A DNA stretch of 44,599 nt, from contig CALCCE010000259.1 in NCBI GenBank assembly GCA_937899835.1, forward strand, positions 1 through 44,599, written 5' to 3'. Positions 14,849-22,191 of this stretch are shown here, piece by piece. The DNA comes from an uncultured Flavobacteriales bacterium. GTDB lineage: Bacteria; Bacteroidota; Bacteroidia; Flavobacteriales_G; Salibacteraceae. How positions within the stretch are numbered: position 1 is the first letter of the stretch; every line of letters starts with the position of its first letter. Both the position numbers and the translations under genes were made by a program. The notes under the pieces were generated by a model. That model ran no database searches, was not told the origin of the DNA, and saw nothing but the letters and a program-made list of their open reading frames with translations.

Positions 14849-15892
14849 TCAAGGACCCTTCTTCTTTTGATTAGAAGCAGTGTCTGGCTCCGCAGTAGGT
14901 TCCGGCCATTCAACCGGTTCAACCATTAATTGTTCGGCAAAACCCGGTTGAGGCAGGTGAATTTCATAGGTTTTTCCCGATCGGTTGTTCAGGTAAGTCC
15001 TGCGCAGCCAAGGGTTGAGCAACTTCAACACTTTGTAGTTGATGCCCTGCTGGCGGGCGAAGAGGGCGAGGTCGGAAATGGCAGTATCTACCGTTATTTT
15101 ATGAGTGGCGATAGGAACGTAGAGGTCTTTGCTGCGGAATTGAAATCCGTATTTATTCGGGTTGCTCAGGATTTCTTTTACCGCCAGAATGCGAAACAAG
15201 TAGCGCGAAGTTTCGGTACCGAGCAGCAAGTCGTAATAGTTGTTTACCTGTTGCCGGTTGAGTTGTTTTTGTAGCCCGGGCATGCCCATGTTGTAGGAGG
15301 CAGCTGCCAAAGTCCAACTCCCAAACTTCTCTTTGGCTTTCGTCAGGTATTGGCAGGCGGCTAAAGTGGCCTTTTCGAGGTGATAGCGTTCGTCTACTTC
15401 TTCGTTGATCTCCAAATCATTTTCGCGGCCGGCAGCTTTCATAAATTGCCAAAAGCCCACTGCTCCGGCCGGTGAAACTACATTTTGAAATCCGCTTTCA
15501 ATCAGGGAAAGGTACTTGAAATCGTCGGGCACACCGTTTTGTGCCAAAATGGGTTCAATAACCGGAAACCACTTGTTGGCCCGCTTGATGAACAGAAGCG
15601 TTTGCGATTGCCAATAGGTGTTCACCAACAATTCGCGGTCGAAGCGTTCGCGCAAATCGATTTTTTCTAAAGGAACCTTTTCTTCCGCAAAACGCAGGTT
15701 CTCCGGCAGGTTCAAAGAATAGATTTGGTAGTTGCGTTGAAATTGCTCGTGGTGTTGCTGGTCTTTCTTTTCGTCGGTGGTAGAAAAGCTGAAAAGCCGA
15801 CCCAAACTAAAAGCGACAATGAGTAAGCCAACCGGAAACCAAATTTTGGGGTTGGACAACCAAGAGGTAACGCGATCAGGAGGATTGGGCAT
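14849..15892 (-). CDS. Membrane-anchored lytic transglycosylase (SLT domain, MltD-like)
   Basis: The protein has 347 residues from the ATG at 15892 (MPNPPDRV). This start overlaps the upstream transferase gene by 17 bp and places one membrane helix at about residues 16-37. The SLT fold is clear: the catalytic glutamate in SLIESGF, SPAGAVGFWQFM, the AAASYNMG motif, and the tyrosine-containing tail region. Such enzymes cleave the MurNAc-GlcNAc bond with 1,6-anhydro product formation. Residues after about 270 (ISDLALFARQQGINYKVLKLLNPWLR) resemble a degenerate LysM-like unit. The C-terminus is a short Pro/Glu/Lys tail. It sits between a WecA-like gene and uvrA in one tight minus-strand run. Confidence 0.88.
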   Translation of the reverse strand: MPNPPDRVTSWLSNPKIWFPVGLLIVAFSLGRLFSFSTTDEKKDQQHHEQFQRNYQIYSLNLPENLRFAEEKVPLEKIDLRERFDRELLVNTYWQSQTLLFIKRANKWFPVIEPILAQNGVPDDFKYLSLIESGFQNVVSPAGAVGFWQFMKAAGRENDLEINEEVDERYHLEKATLAACQYLTKAKEKFGSWTLAAASYNMGMPGLQKQLNRQQVNNYYDLLLGTETSRYLFRILAVKEILSNPNKYGFQFRSKDLYVPIATHKITVDTAISDLALFARQQGINYKVLKLLNPWLRRTYLNNRSGKTYEIHLPQPGFAEQLMVEPVEWPEPTAEPDTASNQKKKGP

Positions 15893-16958
15893 GAAACCGT
15901 GCTTTCGCTTTTTTGTGTTGCGTAGTGTAGTAAAGTCCTCCGAGCACCGCCAGAAAGTACACAGCAAAAAATCCGTAAAACCAGGGAGAGGAAGAAGGGA
16001 TAAAGTTAACGATCACACAGCTAATAGCGAACGAAACGGAGCAAATTGCTCCAAAAAGTAGTGCTACTTGCCGGTCGGTCAGCCCCAGGTAACTCAGGTG
16101 ATGGGTAGTGTGGTCCTTGCCTCCCACAAAGGGGCTTTGGCCCCGTCGAAGCCGGTTGATGATGACCGTAGCTGTATCGGAAATGGGAATGATGAAGGCC
16201 AGCGCTACCAGTAAAATTTGGCGCAAAGCACTGTCCGTTGCTCCCGAAGGGTCGTTCCAAAAAAACGCAATGCCCGCCACCGATAAGATGATGCCCAAAA
16301 ATTGACTTCCGGTGTCGCCCATAAACATTTTTGAAGGGTTCCAATTGTAGTAGAGGAAACCCAACAAACCTCCCAGTGAACCCAGTAGCAGCACCAAAAA
16401 GAAAACATCTACAGTGGCTTGAGCGAGGCAAACCATGAGGGCGATGGCCAAAATGAAACTGGAAACCAAGGTGGTGATGGCGTCCATGTTGTCGAGCATG
16501 TTGATGGAGTTCATCACCGCTACCACCCACAATACCGTAAGGGCATAGTTGAGCCAGGGATTGGAAAACAATTCAATGCAGGTGCCAGTGAAGGCCAACA
16601 GGAGGCCACAACCTACCTGAACCCCAAATTTCAACAGGGGCGTGGTGTTGTAGGCATCGTCGGAGAGGCCCATGAGAAAAGCCATGACCGTAGCCCCTAA
16701 AATGCCGGCGTGTTGCCAGTTGGCCGCTGTGGCTGCGGGGTTGAACAAAAACACATAGCTCAGGTAGGCCACCAGAAACACAATGAAAAAGGAGATGCCT
16801 CCCAGGGCTGGTTTGGAGGTGCCGCTCCAACGAATAATGGATTCGTCGTGGTTGCGAATGCCCAGCGTGCGTGACAACTGTAGCAAAATACGGTTCAGTA
16901 CCAGCGACAGCAGGGTCATCAGCCCAAGGAAAATCACGTATTTAAAACTGGACTCCAA
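15876..16958 (-). CDS. WecA/MraY-family undecaprenyl-phosphate sugar-1-phosphate transferase
   Basis: The 360-residue polytopic protein begins at a TTG. An in-frame stop lies only three codons upstream, and the next ATG would remove the first membrane helix. About ten helices are visible. Family motifs are present: the early cytosolic loop RWSGTSKPALGG, the acidic SINMLDNMDAI motif, MFMGDTGSQFLG, and the basic DHTTHHLSYLGL loop. Such enzymes transfer GlcNAc-1-P or another sugar-1-P to undecaprenyl phosphate and start glycan assembly. The adjoining rfbC and Wzc/Wza genes suggest a surface polysaccharide, not peptidoglycan (MraY). The C-terminus is short and basic. A role as initiating transferase of the neighbouring exopolysaccharide is inferred. 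Confidence 0.88.
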   Translation of the reverse strand: MESSFKYVIFLGLMTLLSLVLNRILLQLSRTLGIRNHDESIIRWSGTSKPALGGISFFIVFLVAYLSYVFLFNPAATAANWQHAGILGATVMAFLMGLSDDAYNTTPLLKFGVQVGCGLLLAFTGTCIELFSNPWLNYALTVLWVVAVMNSINMLDNMDAITTLVSSFILAIALMVCLAQATVDVFFLVLLLGSLGGLLGFLYYNWNPSKMFMGDTGSQFLGIILSVAGIAFFWNDPSGATDSALRQILLVALAFIIPISDTATVIINRLRRGQSPFVGGKDHTTHHLSYLGLTDRQVALLFGAICSVSFAISCVIVNFIPSSSPWFYGFFAVYFLAVLGGLYYTTQHKKAKARFHAQSS

Positions 16959-17039: not shown

Positions 17040-17582
17040 CTAAAACAAGCTTTCGAAATCGGCGAAAGGCGGCAGTTCCAAATCTTTGTCCGAAACCAGA
17101 GGGTCAGCAATGCCCCAGTCAATTTTCAGCGCTGGATCATTCCAGCGAATGCCTCGCTCCGACTCCTTGTTGTATACTGCGGTGCATTTGTAAGAAAAAA
17201 CCGTATCGTTTTCCAGGGTGAGAAAGCCGTGCGCAAACCCCGGTGGAATCCAAAGCATGGTTTTGTTGTCGCCATTCAATTCGTGGGTATACGATTGACC
17301 ATAGGTAGACGAAGCCCTGCGTACATCCACCACCACATCCAGCACACTGCCAGCAATCACCCGCACCAGCTTGCCCTGAGCAAAGGGCGGATTTTGCAGG
17401 TGAAGACCGCGCAATACCCCCCGTTGCGACAAACTTTGGTTGTCTTGCACAAAGTGAAGGTCCAGGCCCGCTGCCCGAAAGGTTTCCTGATTATATGATT
17501 CGTAAAAATAACCACGGGGGTCGTTGAAGACACGAGGATGAATCACTTTCAATCCTTCGAGGGGCGTGTTTTGAACCTGCAT
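17040..17582 (-). CDS. rfbC: dTDP-4-dehydrorhamnose 3,5-epimerase
   Basis: The 180-residue cupin-fold enzyme makes dTDP-4-keto-L-rhamnose in the dTDP-L-rhamnose pathway. Visible motifs are HPRVFNDPRGYFYESY, the substrate-binding LRGLHLQ with the catalytic histidine, GKLVRVIAGSVLDVVVDVR, and IPPGFAHGFLTLEN. Length is usual for the family. It starts at an ATG 7 bp after the stop of the Wzc-type kinase gene, so the two are likely co-translated. The other rhamnose genes (rfbA, rfbB, rfbD) are not in the window, although rhamnose or a related deoxysugar is probably part of the polymer. Confidence 0.95.
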   Translation of the reverse strand: MQVQNTPLEGLKVIHPRVFNDPRGYFYESYNQETFRAAGLDLHFVQDNQSLSQRGVLRGLHLQNPPFAQGKLVRVIAGSVLDVVVDVRRASSTYGQSYTHELNGDNKTMLWIPPGFAHGFLTLENDTVFSYKCTAVYNKESERGIRWNDPALKIDWGIADPLVSDKDLELPPFADFESLF

Positions 17583-17589
17583 GTTGGGT

Positions 17590-20067
17590 TTATTTCGAGC
17601 GTTTCAAGATGCGCTTGTACCAGGGAAGGGTGGGCTTGGGGTCGTCGTAGTAGCCATAGCCGTAGCCATAGCCATAACCATAGCCGTATCCGTAGCCATA
17701 GCCGTATCCGTAGCCATATTTGTAGGAACCGTAACCTCCACGTTGCACATCGACCCCATTGAGCACTACCGAAAGCCGCTTGATGTTGTTTTCGTTGATG
17801 AGGCGATCCACGTTCTGTACGAAACTCTTTTTCGAATATTCCGCCCGGAAGATGTAGATCGGGTAATCGGCCCGCTGGATGCAGTAAATGCCATCGGTTA
17901 CCAAACCCACTGGCGGGTTGTCCATGATGATAATGTCGTATTTCTCTTTGAGGAAAGAAAGAAGCTTTTCCAGGCGGCCGTTGATAATCAGCTCGGAAGG
18001 GTTGGGTGGGATGGGACCAGCCGTGATGAAATGCAGGTTGTCCAATTCACTGGCCTGAATGGTATCTTCAATGTTCACCTTATCAATGAGCAAAGTGCTC
18101 ATGCCGTTGTTGTTGCTCACACCGAAGCCGAGGTGGATTTTCGGTTTCCGCATGTCCAGGTCGAGAATAATAACCCGCTTACCCGAGTAGGCAATGATTC
18201 CCCCAAGATTGATGGCAACAAAGGTTTTGCCTTCTCCGGAAACGGTAGACGTCACGGCGATGGTTCTCGATTCCTTCTCGTTGGAAATAAACTGAAGGTT
18301 GGTCCGTATCGAGCGAAACGATTCTGCAATCATCGACTTGGGACGCTTGTCTACCAGCAACTGCGAAACCGGAATGTTTTTCTTGTATTTCGGTACCAGG
18401 CCCAAAATGCCGACAGAAGCATTGGTCAGTTTGGTGATTTCGTGCAGGGAAGTAATGTTGTTGTGCAAAAAGTAGCGGACCACTACCAACAGAATACTGG
18501 TTAAAAGCGCTACCAACAAGAAAGAGAGAAAGGTGAGGTTGCGGTTGGGTGAAATGGGAATGTTGGGCGTTTGGGCGCGTTCCAAAATCACGTTTTGTGG
18601 CACAAACCCCGCTTTGGAGATAGAATACTCAGTCCGTTTTTCCAACAGCAGGGTATAAAATTTCTCATTGATGGTAAATACCCGTTGCAACCGGGCAAAC
18701 TCCAATTCTTTGGTTGGTAGATCGAGAAAAGTATTTTCAAACTCCTGGGTTTTCGTAGAGATATTTCCACGACGGGCACCCAGTTTTTCGCGCAAGCTTT
18801 TCAAGCTTTCCAGCAACAGCTTTTTTTGAATTTCAATACGGTATTCGATCGATTTGATGTTTTCACTCGAAGGCGTTACCTCATAGAGCATTTGCTCTTT
18901 CTGTATAAGCAGTTCCTGTAGGCTTTCGATCTGCTTTGAAATGTTGTTTTCAAAGTTGGTACCGGTGAGAATGGGCAGCAGGTTGTACACATCGATTTCT
19001 CGTCCTTCTTCCCGGTTGATGGCCTCCTCGATCTCCACCAATATGCTTTCCTGGAGCTCCAGATTGAGCAATTCTCCTTCCAGGTTGTTTAGCCGATCGA
19101 GGTAGATGGAGGTAAAATCGTCCGATTCACTCAATCGATTTTCTTTTTTGAACTCCTGAATAGAGGTTTCCGAAGTTTTCAAACGGCCGTAGACCTGGTC
19201 CACCTGGCGGTCGATAAAATTGAGCACCTGCTTGGCGCTTTCGCTTCGGCGTTCCACATCGTAGTCGATGAACCGTTGGGCCAAAGCCGTAGCGATGTCC
19301 GAAGTTTTTTGAGCATTATCGTCCCGGAAAGAAATCTGTACCGTTTTGGCCGCATCGTTGAGCAGACGTACCGAGAGTTGAGGATAGTATTGGTTCAGAA
19401 TGTGATCAACCAGGTTGAGCTGAAAATAGTGTTGGATCGACTTCACCTGTCCTTGACCTTCAATAAATTGTTCGTAGTCCAGCAGCTTGATCTTGAGGTC
19501 GGCATGGGGCAAGGAGATGGCCCGGGATACCGGATAAGTGCCACCATAGCTTTCGCCTTTGAGCACGTAGGCCAGTTCTACCGTCTCTTTAGAAGGAAAT
19601 TGAATGTCGATCCGGGTATTGTAGAGGGCTGAGTCGATTACTCGCGCTTGTACCAGGTAGGCCGATTTTTTGTAGTTGTCGCCGGTGAGAAATTGTCCTT
19701 CAGCAAAATAGCCCACATCCAAGCCCAAGGCATCCAAAGTAGAGCGGAAAAACTCCTTCGACCGCAACAGCTCAATGTCGCCGGAAATATCGTCGGTTTC
19801 GTAGATGTTGTCTACGTTCAATACCTGCTGTGCAGTGTTGTTGCTGGTGATTTGCAGGATGGTGCTGGCCTCAAAAATGGGTTGGGTGTAGCGCAGGTAA
19901 GCAAAAGCTCCGGCACCGGCCAACATAAAGAAGAGAATGACCCACAACAAACTTTTACGAGCGAGAAAAACAAACAGGCCCAGCTCGAACTCGTTGCTGA
20001 AATTGGTTAACCGCTCTTTGTAGCGTTCAAAGTTTTCGTTGGTCCTGGAAATATCCTCATCGTACAT
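17590..20067 (-). CDS. Wzc-type polysaccharide co-polymerase / tyrosine autokinase with Tyr-Gly repeat tail
   Basis: This is an 825-residue bacterial tyrosine kinase. A Wzz-type chain-length domain lies between two membrane helices (near residues 30-52 and 505-527), with long coiled coils between. The cytosolic kinase domain has Walker A VSGEGKT near residues 610-616, Walker A' ILDLDMRKP and Walker B IIIMDNPP. Such proteins control polymer length and export with Wza. The C-terminus is unusual: 24 codons at 17647-17718 encode alternating Tyr and Gly, with 13 tyrosines in a row of YG pairs, followed by an acidic and then basic end. A tyrosine cluster is the normal autophosphorylation site, but this one is built from a hexanucleotide repeat. 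The wza-like gene ends 23 bp upstream. Confidence 0.95.
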   Translation of the reverse strand: MYDEDISRTNENFERYKERLTNFSNEFELGLFVFLARKSLLWVILFFMLAGAGAFAYLRYTQPIFEASTILQITSNNTAQQVLNVDNIYETDDISGDIELLRSKEFFRSTLDALGLDVGYFAEGQFLTGDNYKKSAYLVQARVIDSALYNTRIDIQFPSKETVELAYVLKGESYGGTYPVSRAISLPHADLKIKLLDYEQFIEGQGQVKSIQHYFQLNLVDHILNQYYPQLSVRLLNDAAKTVQISFRDDNAQKTSDIATALAQRFIDYDVERRSESAKQVLNFIDRQVDQVYGRLKTSETSIQEFKKENRLSESDDFTSIYLDRLNNLEGELLNLELQESILVEIEEAINREEGREIDVYNLLPILTGTNFENNISKQIESLQELLIQKEQMLYEVTPSSENIKSIEYRIEIQKKLLLESLKSLREKLGARRGNISTKTQEFENTFLDLPTKELEFARLQRVFTINEKFYTLLLEKRTEYSISKAGFVPQNVILERAQTPNIPISPNRNLTFLSFLLVALLTSILLVVVRYFLHNNITSLHEITKLTNASVGILGLVPKYKKNIPVSQLLVDKRPKSMIAESFRSIRTNLQFISNEKESRTIAVTSTVSGEGKTFVAINLGGIIAYSGKRVIILDLDMRKPKIHLGFGVSNNNGMSTLLIDKVNIEDTIQASELDNLHFITAGPIPPNPSELIINGRLEKLLSFLKEKYDIIIMDNPPVGLVTDGIYCIQRADYPIYIFRAEYSKKSFVQNVDRLINENNIKRLSVVLNGVDVQRGGYGSYKYGYGYGYGYGYGYGYGYGYGYGYYDDPKPTLPWYKRILKRSK
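17647..17718 (-). repeat. 72-bp in-frame hexanucleotide repeat encoding the Tyr-Gly tail
   Basis: On the minus strand the DNA reads as TAY-GGN pairs: eleven Tyr-Gly pairs plus a terminal Tyr-Tyr. An 18-bp block (TATGGCTACGGATACGGC) occurs twice in tandem at the upstream end, then simpler TATGGC units follow. Unit lengths are multiples of 3, so slippage would change the tyrosine number without a frameshift. Confidence 0.9.
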
Positions 20068-20090: not shown

Positions 20091-20861
20091 TTAGAAGTTA
20101 CGCACCGAAACAATGGCAATCAACACCGAGGTGAGCAAAGTTAGTATCGGACTCAGGTCGCGAAGCAATTCGTCCGACACGTCCAAAACAGGTTCAACAT
20201 AGATAATGTCATTGGCCTGTAAAATCATGCCAGCGGCATTCACACCTTCAATGGTGGAGAGGTCAAATTGATAAACGATCGGATTATTGGGGTCGCCCCG
20301 AATCAACTTCACATTCCTGGCCTTACCTGTACTGATGCCACCTGCCATAGCCAGCCCTTCGATCAGAGAGGTACTTTGGTTGGTGAGCCGAATAACCTGG
20401 GCTTCTCCACCCGCACCCGGGAAAACAATCACCCTGCGGTTGACCACATTCAACATCACAAAAGGTTTGTTGTAAAAGTCGCTGTATTCTTTTTCCAACA
20501 ACAATTCCGCTTCCCGCAAGGTCATACCCGTAATGTTCACATGCCCCACGATCGGCAGCTTCAACGTGCCATCCTGCTCAATAAGAAATTGAAAGGTATT
20601 GTTGGATTGGGAGGCTGCCATAGCCGAGTTGGAGAGGTCGATTAACTTAAAACCATCGTTGGCAAACAGGCGAAAGGTCACAATGTCGTTTGCCGATAGC
20701 TTGTAGGCAGTAGCAATGGTGTCTGGTGGCACGTCAAATTCGTAGTCTTTGTCTGTGCGCAACATCCAACTGGCACGCCAGTTACATCCCGCCAATAGCA
20801 TTCCGCCCAGTACCAACAGAAGGGTCGATCTCAGTATCTTTTTCACCATGGTTTTTCGCAT
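20091..20861 (-). CDS. Wza/BexD-type polysaccharide export lipoprotein
   Basis: The 256-residue protein has a lipoprotein signal whose lipobox LAGC places the lipidated cysteine at residue 26. The Poly_export domain follows (YKLSANDIVTFRLFANDGF ... YKLxxxDxV pattern, then TLKLPIVGHVNITGMTLREAE). An SLBB-like segment comes next (VIVFPGAGGEAQVIRLTNQSTSLIEGLAMAGG). A single hydrophobic C-terminal helix (about 235-252) fits an outer-membrane amphipathic or transmembrane helix as in Wza. It would form the outer-membrane exit channel for the polymer synthesised with the Wzc-type kinase encoded 23 bp downstream. It is somewhat shorter than E. coli Wza, as is usual in Bacteroidota. Confidence 0.92.
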   Translation of the reverse strand: MRKTMVKKILRSTLLLVLGGMLLAGCNWRASWMLRTDKDYEFDVPPDTIATAYKLSANDIVTFRLFANDGFKLIDLSNSAMAASQSNNTFQFLIEQDGTLKLPIVGHVNITGMTLREAELLLEKEYSDFYNKPFVMLNVVNRRVIVFPGAGGEAQVIRLTNQSTSLIEGLAMAGGISTGKARNVKLIRGDPNNPIVYQFDLSTIEGVNAAGMILQANDIIYVEPVLDVSDELLRDLSPILTLLTSVLIAIVSVRNF

Positions 20862-21000: not shown

Positions 21001-22191
21001 TCATGCTTTGTCCAGCAAACGGTCGTAGAGTGTTCGAATATCTTTCACCAATCGGAGGTAATGAAACTTTTCTTTCACATGGGCCCACCCCCCCAACCCC
21101 ATTTTTTTGCGCAGGTCAGCATCGTCTACCAGTTGGATCAGGTGATTTGTAAAACCCGCCACATCAGCCGTGGGCGAGAGCAAGGCCGTGGTATTTTGCA
21201 GCACCACATTTTCGATGCCGCCCACGTTGGTAGAAACAATGGGCCGCTCGGCCGCTTGGGCTTCAATAAGACTTACGGGCGTTCCCTCATTGAGCGAAGT
21301 GAGGGCCACGATGTCCAATCCCGGATACACCAATTCTACATCCCGAATCCAGGAGGTCAAGGTTACCAGCGCCTCAGGGTTGGACCGCTCTGGCGATTCC
21401 CAGGGCAGCTGAAGTGCGTCACACCAGGATTCAATGTCTTGCCGCAACTCACCATCTCCTACAATAAAGGCTCTGAAAGGGGTAGACGACCGCTGGCGCA
21501 AACCCACCAGGGCTTCTAAAAACAAGCGGTGGTTTTTGATGGGCACCAACCGCCCAATGATGCCGATGGCCACCGTATCGTCGGCTAAGCCATAGCGCTG
21601 CCGAAAAGCTTCCCGGCGTTGGTCCATGGCCTCCCGAAAGCGGCTCAGGTCAAAGCCCAGGGGTACAATGTGGGTTTTGTCAGTAGCGCAAATGCGGTGC
21701 TCTTCGCACAATTCGAAGCGCTGCCGCTCCGAAATGGCAATGATGCCGGAAGTCTTCCGGGCCAGGTAGCGTTCGATGGTTTTGTAAAAAGTGGTTTTGG
21801 CCTTGCTGAAGTAGGAGTGAAAAACGTGGCCATGAAAGGTGTGTAGAATAACCGGTACCCCTTCGTGCAAGGCCGCCAAACGGCCCAGGGTTCCTGCTTT
21901 GGAAGCATGCGTATGCACAATGTCGGGTTGGTATTCTCGAATCAACCGCCGGAGCTTCCAATAAGCTTTCCAATCGAGCCGCGGATCGATTTCCCGTTTC
22001 ATTTCCGGAATGATCAACGGTTCCAGGCCCAATTTTTCTACGATGAACTCGGAGGTGTCTTCGCTCACATCTTTGGTGCCGCCTACCAGCAGCGTTTCGT
22101 AGGGTTCAGACAAATAGTGGCTCAGGTAGGCTACGTTAAACGTAGGGCCTCCCAAATTGAAGCGGTTGATGATGCGGAGCACTTTGGGCAC
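21001..22191 (-). CDS. Glycosyltransferase family 4 protein
   Basis: The 396-residue GT-B fold enzyme starts at a GTG one base after the AsnB stop. The N-terminal acceptor domain opens with VLRIINRFNLGGPTFNV and includes DIVHTHASKAGTLGR. The C-terminal nucleotide-sugar domain carries GIIGRLVPIKNHRLFLEAL and the family motif SLNEGTPVSLIEAQAAERP followed by STNVGGIENVV. It is soluble or peripheral at the inner membrane and transfers a sugar from a nucleotide donor to a lipid-linked acceptor. Donor and acceptor cannot be read from sequence. Its position between asnB and the Wza/Wzc genes suggests a role in the same exopolysaccharide. Confidence 0.93.
   Translation of the reverse strand: MPKVLRIINRFNLGGPTFNVAYLSHYLSEPYETLLVGGTKDVSEDTSEFIVEKLGLEPLIIPEMKREIDPRLDWKAYWKLRRLIREYQPDIVHTHASKAGTLGRLAALHEGVPVILHTFHGHVFHSYFSKAKTTFYKTIERYLARKTSGIIAISERQRFELCEEHRICATDKTHIVPLGFDLSRFREAMDQRREAFRQRYGLADDTVAIGIIGRLVPIKNHRLFLEALVGLRQRSSTPFRAFIVGDGELRQDIESWCDALQLPWESPERSNPEALVTLTSWIRDVELVYPGLDIVALTSLNEGTPVSLIEAQAAERPIVSTNVGGIENVVLQNTTALLSPTADVAGFTNHLIQLVDDADLRKKMGLGGWAHVKEKFHYLRLVKDIRTLYDRLLDKA

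Follow-up and report, generated by a model that had tools for sequence, protein, structure and literature searches.

The Tyr-Gly tail of a Wzc-type kinase from an uncultured Flavobacteriales bacterium: a probable autophosphorylation cluster whose unit number changes slowly in related lineages

Is a run of alternating tyrosine and glycine codons at the end of a bacterial tyrosine kinase gene a switch operated by its own DNA repeat, or a phosphorylation substrate whose length evolves no faster than the lineage that carries it? The question is raised by a contig of an uncultured Flavobacteriales bacterium, analysed here as a single stretch of 44,599 nucleotides (the window). A first-pass annotation of this DNA had proposed that slippage adds or removes Tyr-Gly pairs in frame, and that the tail could thereby serve as a device for tuning exopolysaccharide length or amount. 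The kinase gene, its domains and its neighbours are as follows:

15876..16958, minus strand: WecA/MraY-type glycosyl-phosphate transferase (PF00953, E = 2.2e-25; TIGR02380 below cut-off), likely the initiating enzyme
17040..17582, minus strand: RmlC, dTDP-4-dehydrorhamnose 3,5-epimerase, directly downstream of the kinase gene (PF00908, E = 8.5e-72; TIGR01221 above cut-off)
17590..20067, minus strand: Wzc-type polysaccharide co-polymerase/BY-kinase gene, 825 aa (open reading frame, Pfam, NCBIfam and PDB Wzc matches)
17911..17937, minus strand: Walker B motif, residues 711-719, DIIIMDNPP (D716 and P719 in 83/83 relatives)
18145..18174, minus strand: Walker A' motif, residues 632-641, VIILDLDMRK (D636, D638; D638 in 83/83 relatives)
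18220..18252, minus strand: Walker A motif, residues 606-616, with K614 and T615 (E. coli Wzc alignment; K in 83/83 relatives)
18472..18699, minus strand: GNVR domain, residues 457-532 (PF13807, E = 5.8e-08)
19732..19986, minus strand: Wzz chain-length-determinant domain, residues 28-112 (PF02706, E = 7e-08)
20091..20861, minus strand: Wza-type polysaccharide export protein of the outer membrane, immediately upstream of the kinase gene (PF02563, E = 2.8e-11; SLBB_2)
21001..22191, minus strand: GT4-type glycosyltransferase (PF13692, E = 9.5e-24)

The annotation of this gene as a tyrosine kinase ending in a tyrosine cluster was borne out. PF02706, PF13807 and PF13614 (AAA_31) all exceed their Pfam cut-offs in the one chain, and the NCBIfam model for polysaccharide biosynthesis tyrosine autokinases (TIGR01007) is passed with 168.9 bits against a cut-off of 108.05. 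A sequence search of the PDB recovers experimental structures of Wzc with E values between 1e-45 and 1e-49, and these matches are decisive for the identity of the kinase. K614/T615, D636/D638 and D716 align with K540/T541, D562/D564 and D642 of K30 Wzc, and K614, D638, D716 and P719 are invariant in 83 aligned relatives. Judged by its sequence, the product is an ordinary Wzc-type capsule or slime kinase. Its closest known counterparts are the Wzc proteins of E. coli K30 and K-12, which are PCP-2 polysaccharide co-polymerases and BY-kinases (PDB 7nhr, 9exo and 3la6), and which share with the window kinase their domain order, the Walker A, A' and B residues, a YxY-spaced C-terminal tyrosine cluster and a neighbouring Wza gene. 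The two nevertheless differ in several respects: the tyrosine cluster of E. coli Wzc is shorter and irregular, whereas that of the window kinase has about a dozen strictly alternating Tyr-Gly units, and the enterobacterial Wzc equivalog model (NF008568) is not reached, at 228.1 bits against a cut-off of 1068. Another close known system, Porphyromonas gingivalis Ptk1 (PGN_1524), belongs to the same phylum as the window kinase. A search of the open-access literature found no paper joining YGYGYG, tyrosine kinase and exopolysaccharide.

The tail itself comprises two features:

17647..17718, minus strand: Tyr-Gly tract, codons 784-807, (YG)11-Y-Y, 13 Tyr and 11 Gly, 72 bp (open reading frame translation, repeat analysis)
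17683..17718, minus strand: perfect 18-bp tandem, two copies of TATGGCTACGGATACGGC (repeat analysis)

Minus-strand translation confirms the count and placement given earlier, with 13 tyrosines alternating with glycine over 24 codons; the interval 17590-17730 that had been assigned to the tail covers the last part of the gene, stop codon included, and is wider than the tract proper. As a protein sequence, the Tyr-Gly repeat lies far beyond chance, and its YxY spacing is unbroken across residues 784-806. Its DNA presents a different picture. Tandem Repeats Finder reports 17650-17718 at periods of 6, 12 and 18 (score 76-89), and the 18-bp tandem is indeed perfect, yet the tract is no clean microsatellite, as its 11 hexamers fall into four kinds (TATGGC, TACGGA, TACGGC and TATGGT) and only one of the 10 adjacent pairs is identical. 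At a lag of 6 the tract matches itself at 0.794, where shuffling of synonymous codons gives 0.830 (p = 0.93), and the run of 23 matches at a lag of 18 bp has a p of 0.025 that becomes about 0.12 once corrected for five lags. Since the lag-6 match falls below the shuffled mean and the 18-bp tandem is weak, the periodicity of the DNA is mostly what a Tyr-Gly protein repeat forces upon it. Duplication of an 18-bp block, judged from the window alone, was set aside as weak, the p of 0.025 belonging to a single lag out of five.

Tails of this type are common in the phylum and not special to this genome. Matches were found in 60 of 60 genomes in the search for relatives, and Tyr-Gly-rich tails end all 37 distinct close homologues fetched (the 29 best fetched loci other than the window's own, plus eight others, also distinct, taken from the named genome collection). 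The genome itself encodes four more Wzc homologues (L014-L017), of which the two on contigs C28 and C237 end in (YG)n tails and the two on C238 and C40 do not. Among 32 kinases of the set L013-L046, which takes in the window kinase and two of its paralogues, the longest uninterrupted run ranges from 2 to 11 units with a median of 8, the window tract standing at 11; many relatives are draft metagenome assemblies in which repeats may be collapsed. In one such draft (G029) the Tyr-Gly tract of L046 contains unresolved bases, and a second contig of the same genome (C90) begins inside a kinase tail; Tyr-Gly repeats may be points at which draft assemblies break. Across the phylum, 29 of 148 genomes contain the exact pattern (YG)4Y, with the first fetched match being a BY-kinase tail in 26 of the 29 and another Tyr/Gly-rich protein in three. 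Tyr-Gly-rich tails were also found in 90 congeneric Flavobacteriaceae-like kinases (genus g41). Comparison across phyla draws on a small sample of nine plasmid-borne kinases: in Burkholderia, Priestia, Lactococcus, Azospirillum, a planctomycete and a cyanobacterium the tyrosines are few or form short clusters, the Roseivivax kinase ends in a looser Tyr/Gly tail, and two from Bacteroidales alternate in YGYR or YGYK fashion, still with a tyrosine at every second residue.

What such a tail might do is suggested by K30 Wzc, whose tail enters the active site of a neighbouring subunit, where a pocket receives the tyrosine at position i-2, which orders the tail; phosphorylation proceeds from the C to the N terminus, and octamers cease to form once four conserved tyrosines are phosphorylated, with the fourth phosphotyrosine as the tipping point (PMC11986026; PMC8285477). 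The authors of that work proposed a YxY ratchet for K30 Wzc (PMC11986026). By analogy, we infer for the window kinase autophosphorylation, an octamer, a ratchet and the number of its steps. In the octamer each tail would occupy its neighbour's active site, one tyrosine being phosphorylated while the tyrosine two residues N-terminal to it waits in the pocket, and the tail would advance by one YxY step per phosphorylation in the C to N direction. The build-up of phosphotyrosine would then loosen the octamer, a phosphatase would reset it, and the cycle would control the polymerase. With (YG)11 every step would find a tyrosine at i-2, and the tail might allow about a dozen steps against the four functional conserved tyrosines in K30, although K30 itself stops at four conserved sites. 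The tract begins nine residues past the position aligned to K701 of K30 Wzc, close to the place of Y708, the innermost phosphorylated tyrosine of K30, which lies seven residues past K701. The pocket is a point of divergence: E675 and S679 of K30 Wzc correspond in the alignment to F749 and V753, the first position being F or M in 64 of 83 relatives and the second mostly V, L or I. Because both residues are replaced, charge-based rejection of phosphotyrosine, as proposed for K30, cannot apply in the same way here; a hydrophobic pocket may still prefer tyrosine over phosphotyrosine. As for the resetting enzyme, searches found no phosphatase gene in the window, adjoining the kinase or elsewhere, which is a further difference from E. 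coli Wzc; the genome does encode two LMW-type phosphatases and one of CpsB/CapC type, the last on C237, where it lies 1.1 kb away from the YG-tailed kinase.

We consider it probable that the gene encodes a Wzc-type co-polymerase and autokinase whose Tyr-Gly tail is an autophosphorylation cluster, or ratchet track, with a slowly changing number of units. A simpler account takes the tail to be a pool of phosphorylatable tyrosines, the length of which above some minimum is nearly neutral and drifts by occasional in-frame duplication or deletion with no graded effect on the polymer. It draws on the finding that regulation in K30 depends on the extent of phosphorylation and not on any single tyrosine (PMC11986026), on a longest run that varies between 2 and 11 units among the relatives without obvious loss of the gene, and on the different tyrosine-bearing tails, or few tyrosines, of other phyla. 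Against it, tyrosines at i and i-2 are strictly maintained in most tails of the phylum, the Bacteroidales alternation included, which suggests that spacing matters, and we regard the neutral pool as possible but doubtful. A bolder extension of the ratchet track would have the number of Tyr-Gly units set the number of clicks before the octamer falls apart, making the tail a graded fuse with natural longest runs of 2 to 15, changed over evolution in steps of 12 or 18 bp, that fixes how long polymerisation lasts and how long the polymer becomes in each lineage; this we hold to be rather unlikely. The phylum offers nearly idealised YxY tracks in a natural series of lengths, and this series could separate break-up of the octamer at a fixed number of phosphates from break-up once the whole tail, down to its root, has been pulled in. 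Whether the natural series of tail lengths sets the step number of a ratchet is, to our minds, the more interesting question that remains.

The proposal of a slippage-tuned contingency locus, in which gain and loss of Tyr-Gly units within populations would tune the polymer, fares much worse. No second member of the window's genus was present in the sample of relatives searched, and tests of rate therefore rest on other genera, represented by one genome per species. Among 90 kinases from the large genus g41, with longest runs of 2-9 units, a tree of the kinase domains requires 46 changes of one unit, compared with a mean of 84.5 (never below 70) when labels are shuffled to remove phylogenetic signal. 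Over a tree length of 34.9 substitutions per site this amounts to 1.3 steps per substitution per site, a lower bound that counts net changes between species. Unit number differs in about one fifth of 43 pairs sharing at least 82% nucleotide identity in the kinase domain, and is thus mostly constant at the species level above this threshold. In all 35 equal-length pairs at or above 82% identity (34 from g41 and one of the Chlorobiaceae type described below), the tracts differ synonymously, at a mean of 51% of codons. A mostly constant number with synonymous divergence, the pattern that the first-pass annotation had itself set against its proposal, is accordingly what is found at the species level among close congeneric species.

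In 82 distinct Flavobacteriia tracts, pooled from the window's relatives and genera g10 and g41, adjacent units are identical in 77 cases where shuffled codons give 101 (z = -3.4). At lags of 12 and 18 bp, between units two or three apart, likeness is instead more frequent than in shuffled codons (z = 3.3 and 3.4). Partial relatedness of the tracts by descent inflates these z-scores somewhat. An overall avoidance of codon repetition was rejected as the cause of low adjacent-unit identity, since codons at the same distance in the rest of the proteins show no avoidance (z = 0.34); directly adjacent codons there, which lie at a different distance, give z = -4.5. The low identity of neighbours fits either selection against slippage-prone DNA or the survival of tracts unable to slip. 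Joint identity of Tyr and Gly codons in these tracts hardly exceeds the product of each alone, and copying in blocks of 12 or 18 bp is suggested rather than demonstrated. The window tract is neither pure nor slippage-prone in the manner of a contingency locus, with one in ten adjacent units identical and lag-1 identity below chance in its lineage. Slippage as its present-day driver was rejected as the main reading, given an impure tract, the low likeness of adjacent units, a unit number that follows the tree, and synonymous divergence at equal length. As a whole, the contingency-locus account can appeal to the perfect 18-bp tandem, to the likeness of units at 12- and 18-bp lags and to the faster tracts described below, and we judge it very improbable for this gene, where unit number looks like a slowly evolving trait of the lineage and does not look like a rapid switch. 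The earlier interpretation is thus partly supported, its kinase and tyrosine cluster standing and its tuning device not. A comparison is offered by tolA of E. coli, which resembles the window tract in being a coding repeat in which changes of unit keep the frame; its repeat is reported to be highly variable between strains (PMC3477136), unlike the impure window tract with its slowly changing relatives.

A different regime is seen in the kinases of genus g68, which like the window kinase are Wzc homologues (L167-L176) with Tyr-Gly tails, theirs with longest runs of 2-15 units. Three of the genomes (G102, G155 and G159) carry a gene for the FMO antenna protein (PF02327, E ~1e-224) and are for that reason considered Chlorobiaceae-like. 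Unlike the window tract, these tails are encoded by nearly pure hexanucleotide repeats and change fast: identical adjacent units make up 59% in g68, whereas their share is 16% for g41, 17.5% among relatives of the window and 10% for the window tract itself. The rate of change in unit number is 10.7 steps per substitution per site, about eight-fold that of g41, a rough figure that comes from eight sequences. Nearly pure TATGGC, TATGGG or TATGGA tracts with longest runs of 3-15 units were observed in L167-L174 and L176 (genomes G102, G155, G380, G372, G359, G373, G364, G377 and G159). L169 and L171, which are 89% identical, have nine units each, one tract containing (TATGGG)8 and its counterpart (TATGGC)8, a mark of active homogenisation. 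In Chlorobiaceae-type tails the slippage mechanism of the first-pass annotation is plausible, and the difference between the slow, impure tracts of Flavobacteriia and the fast, pure ones of the Chlorobiaceae type shows where real variation in repeat length may be sought.

Tyr/Gly-rich low-complexity domains offer an analogy for one further account, in which the aromatic tail is a sticky segment that clusters kinases or recruits partners and is dissolved by phosphorylation, but this draws on tail composition while structural homologues use the same segment as a substrate, a role that suffices, and we consider it extremely improbable.

Two minor observations concern other repeats. The YGYR-tailed kinase of Bacteroidales (L212, plasmid matches H42-H61) was observed on plasmids of about 98 kb and others in species of Bacteroides, Parabacteroides and Phocaeicola, in 20 records at 99% identity or more, of which 19 are identical over 450 bp and one (H61) is 1 bp shorter; its spread is too recent to inform on the window tract. 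At the start of the contig, positions 1-142 of the window hold a 71-bp tandem repeat in two copies that match at 88%.
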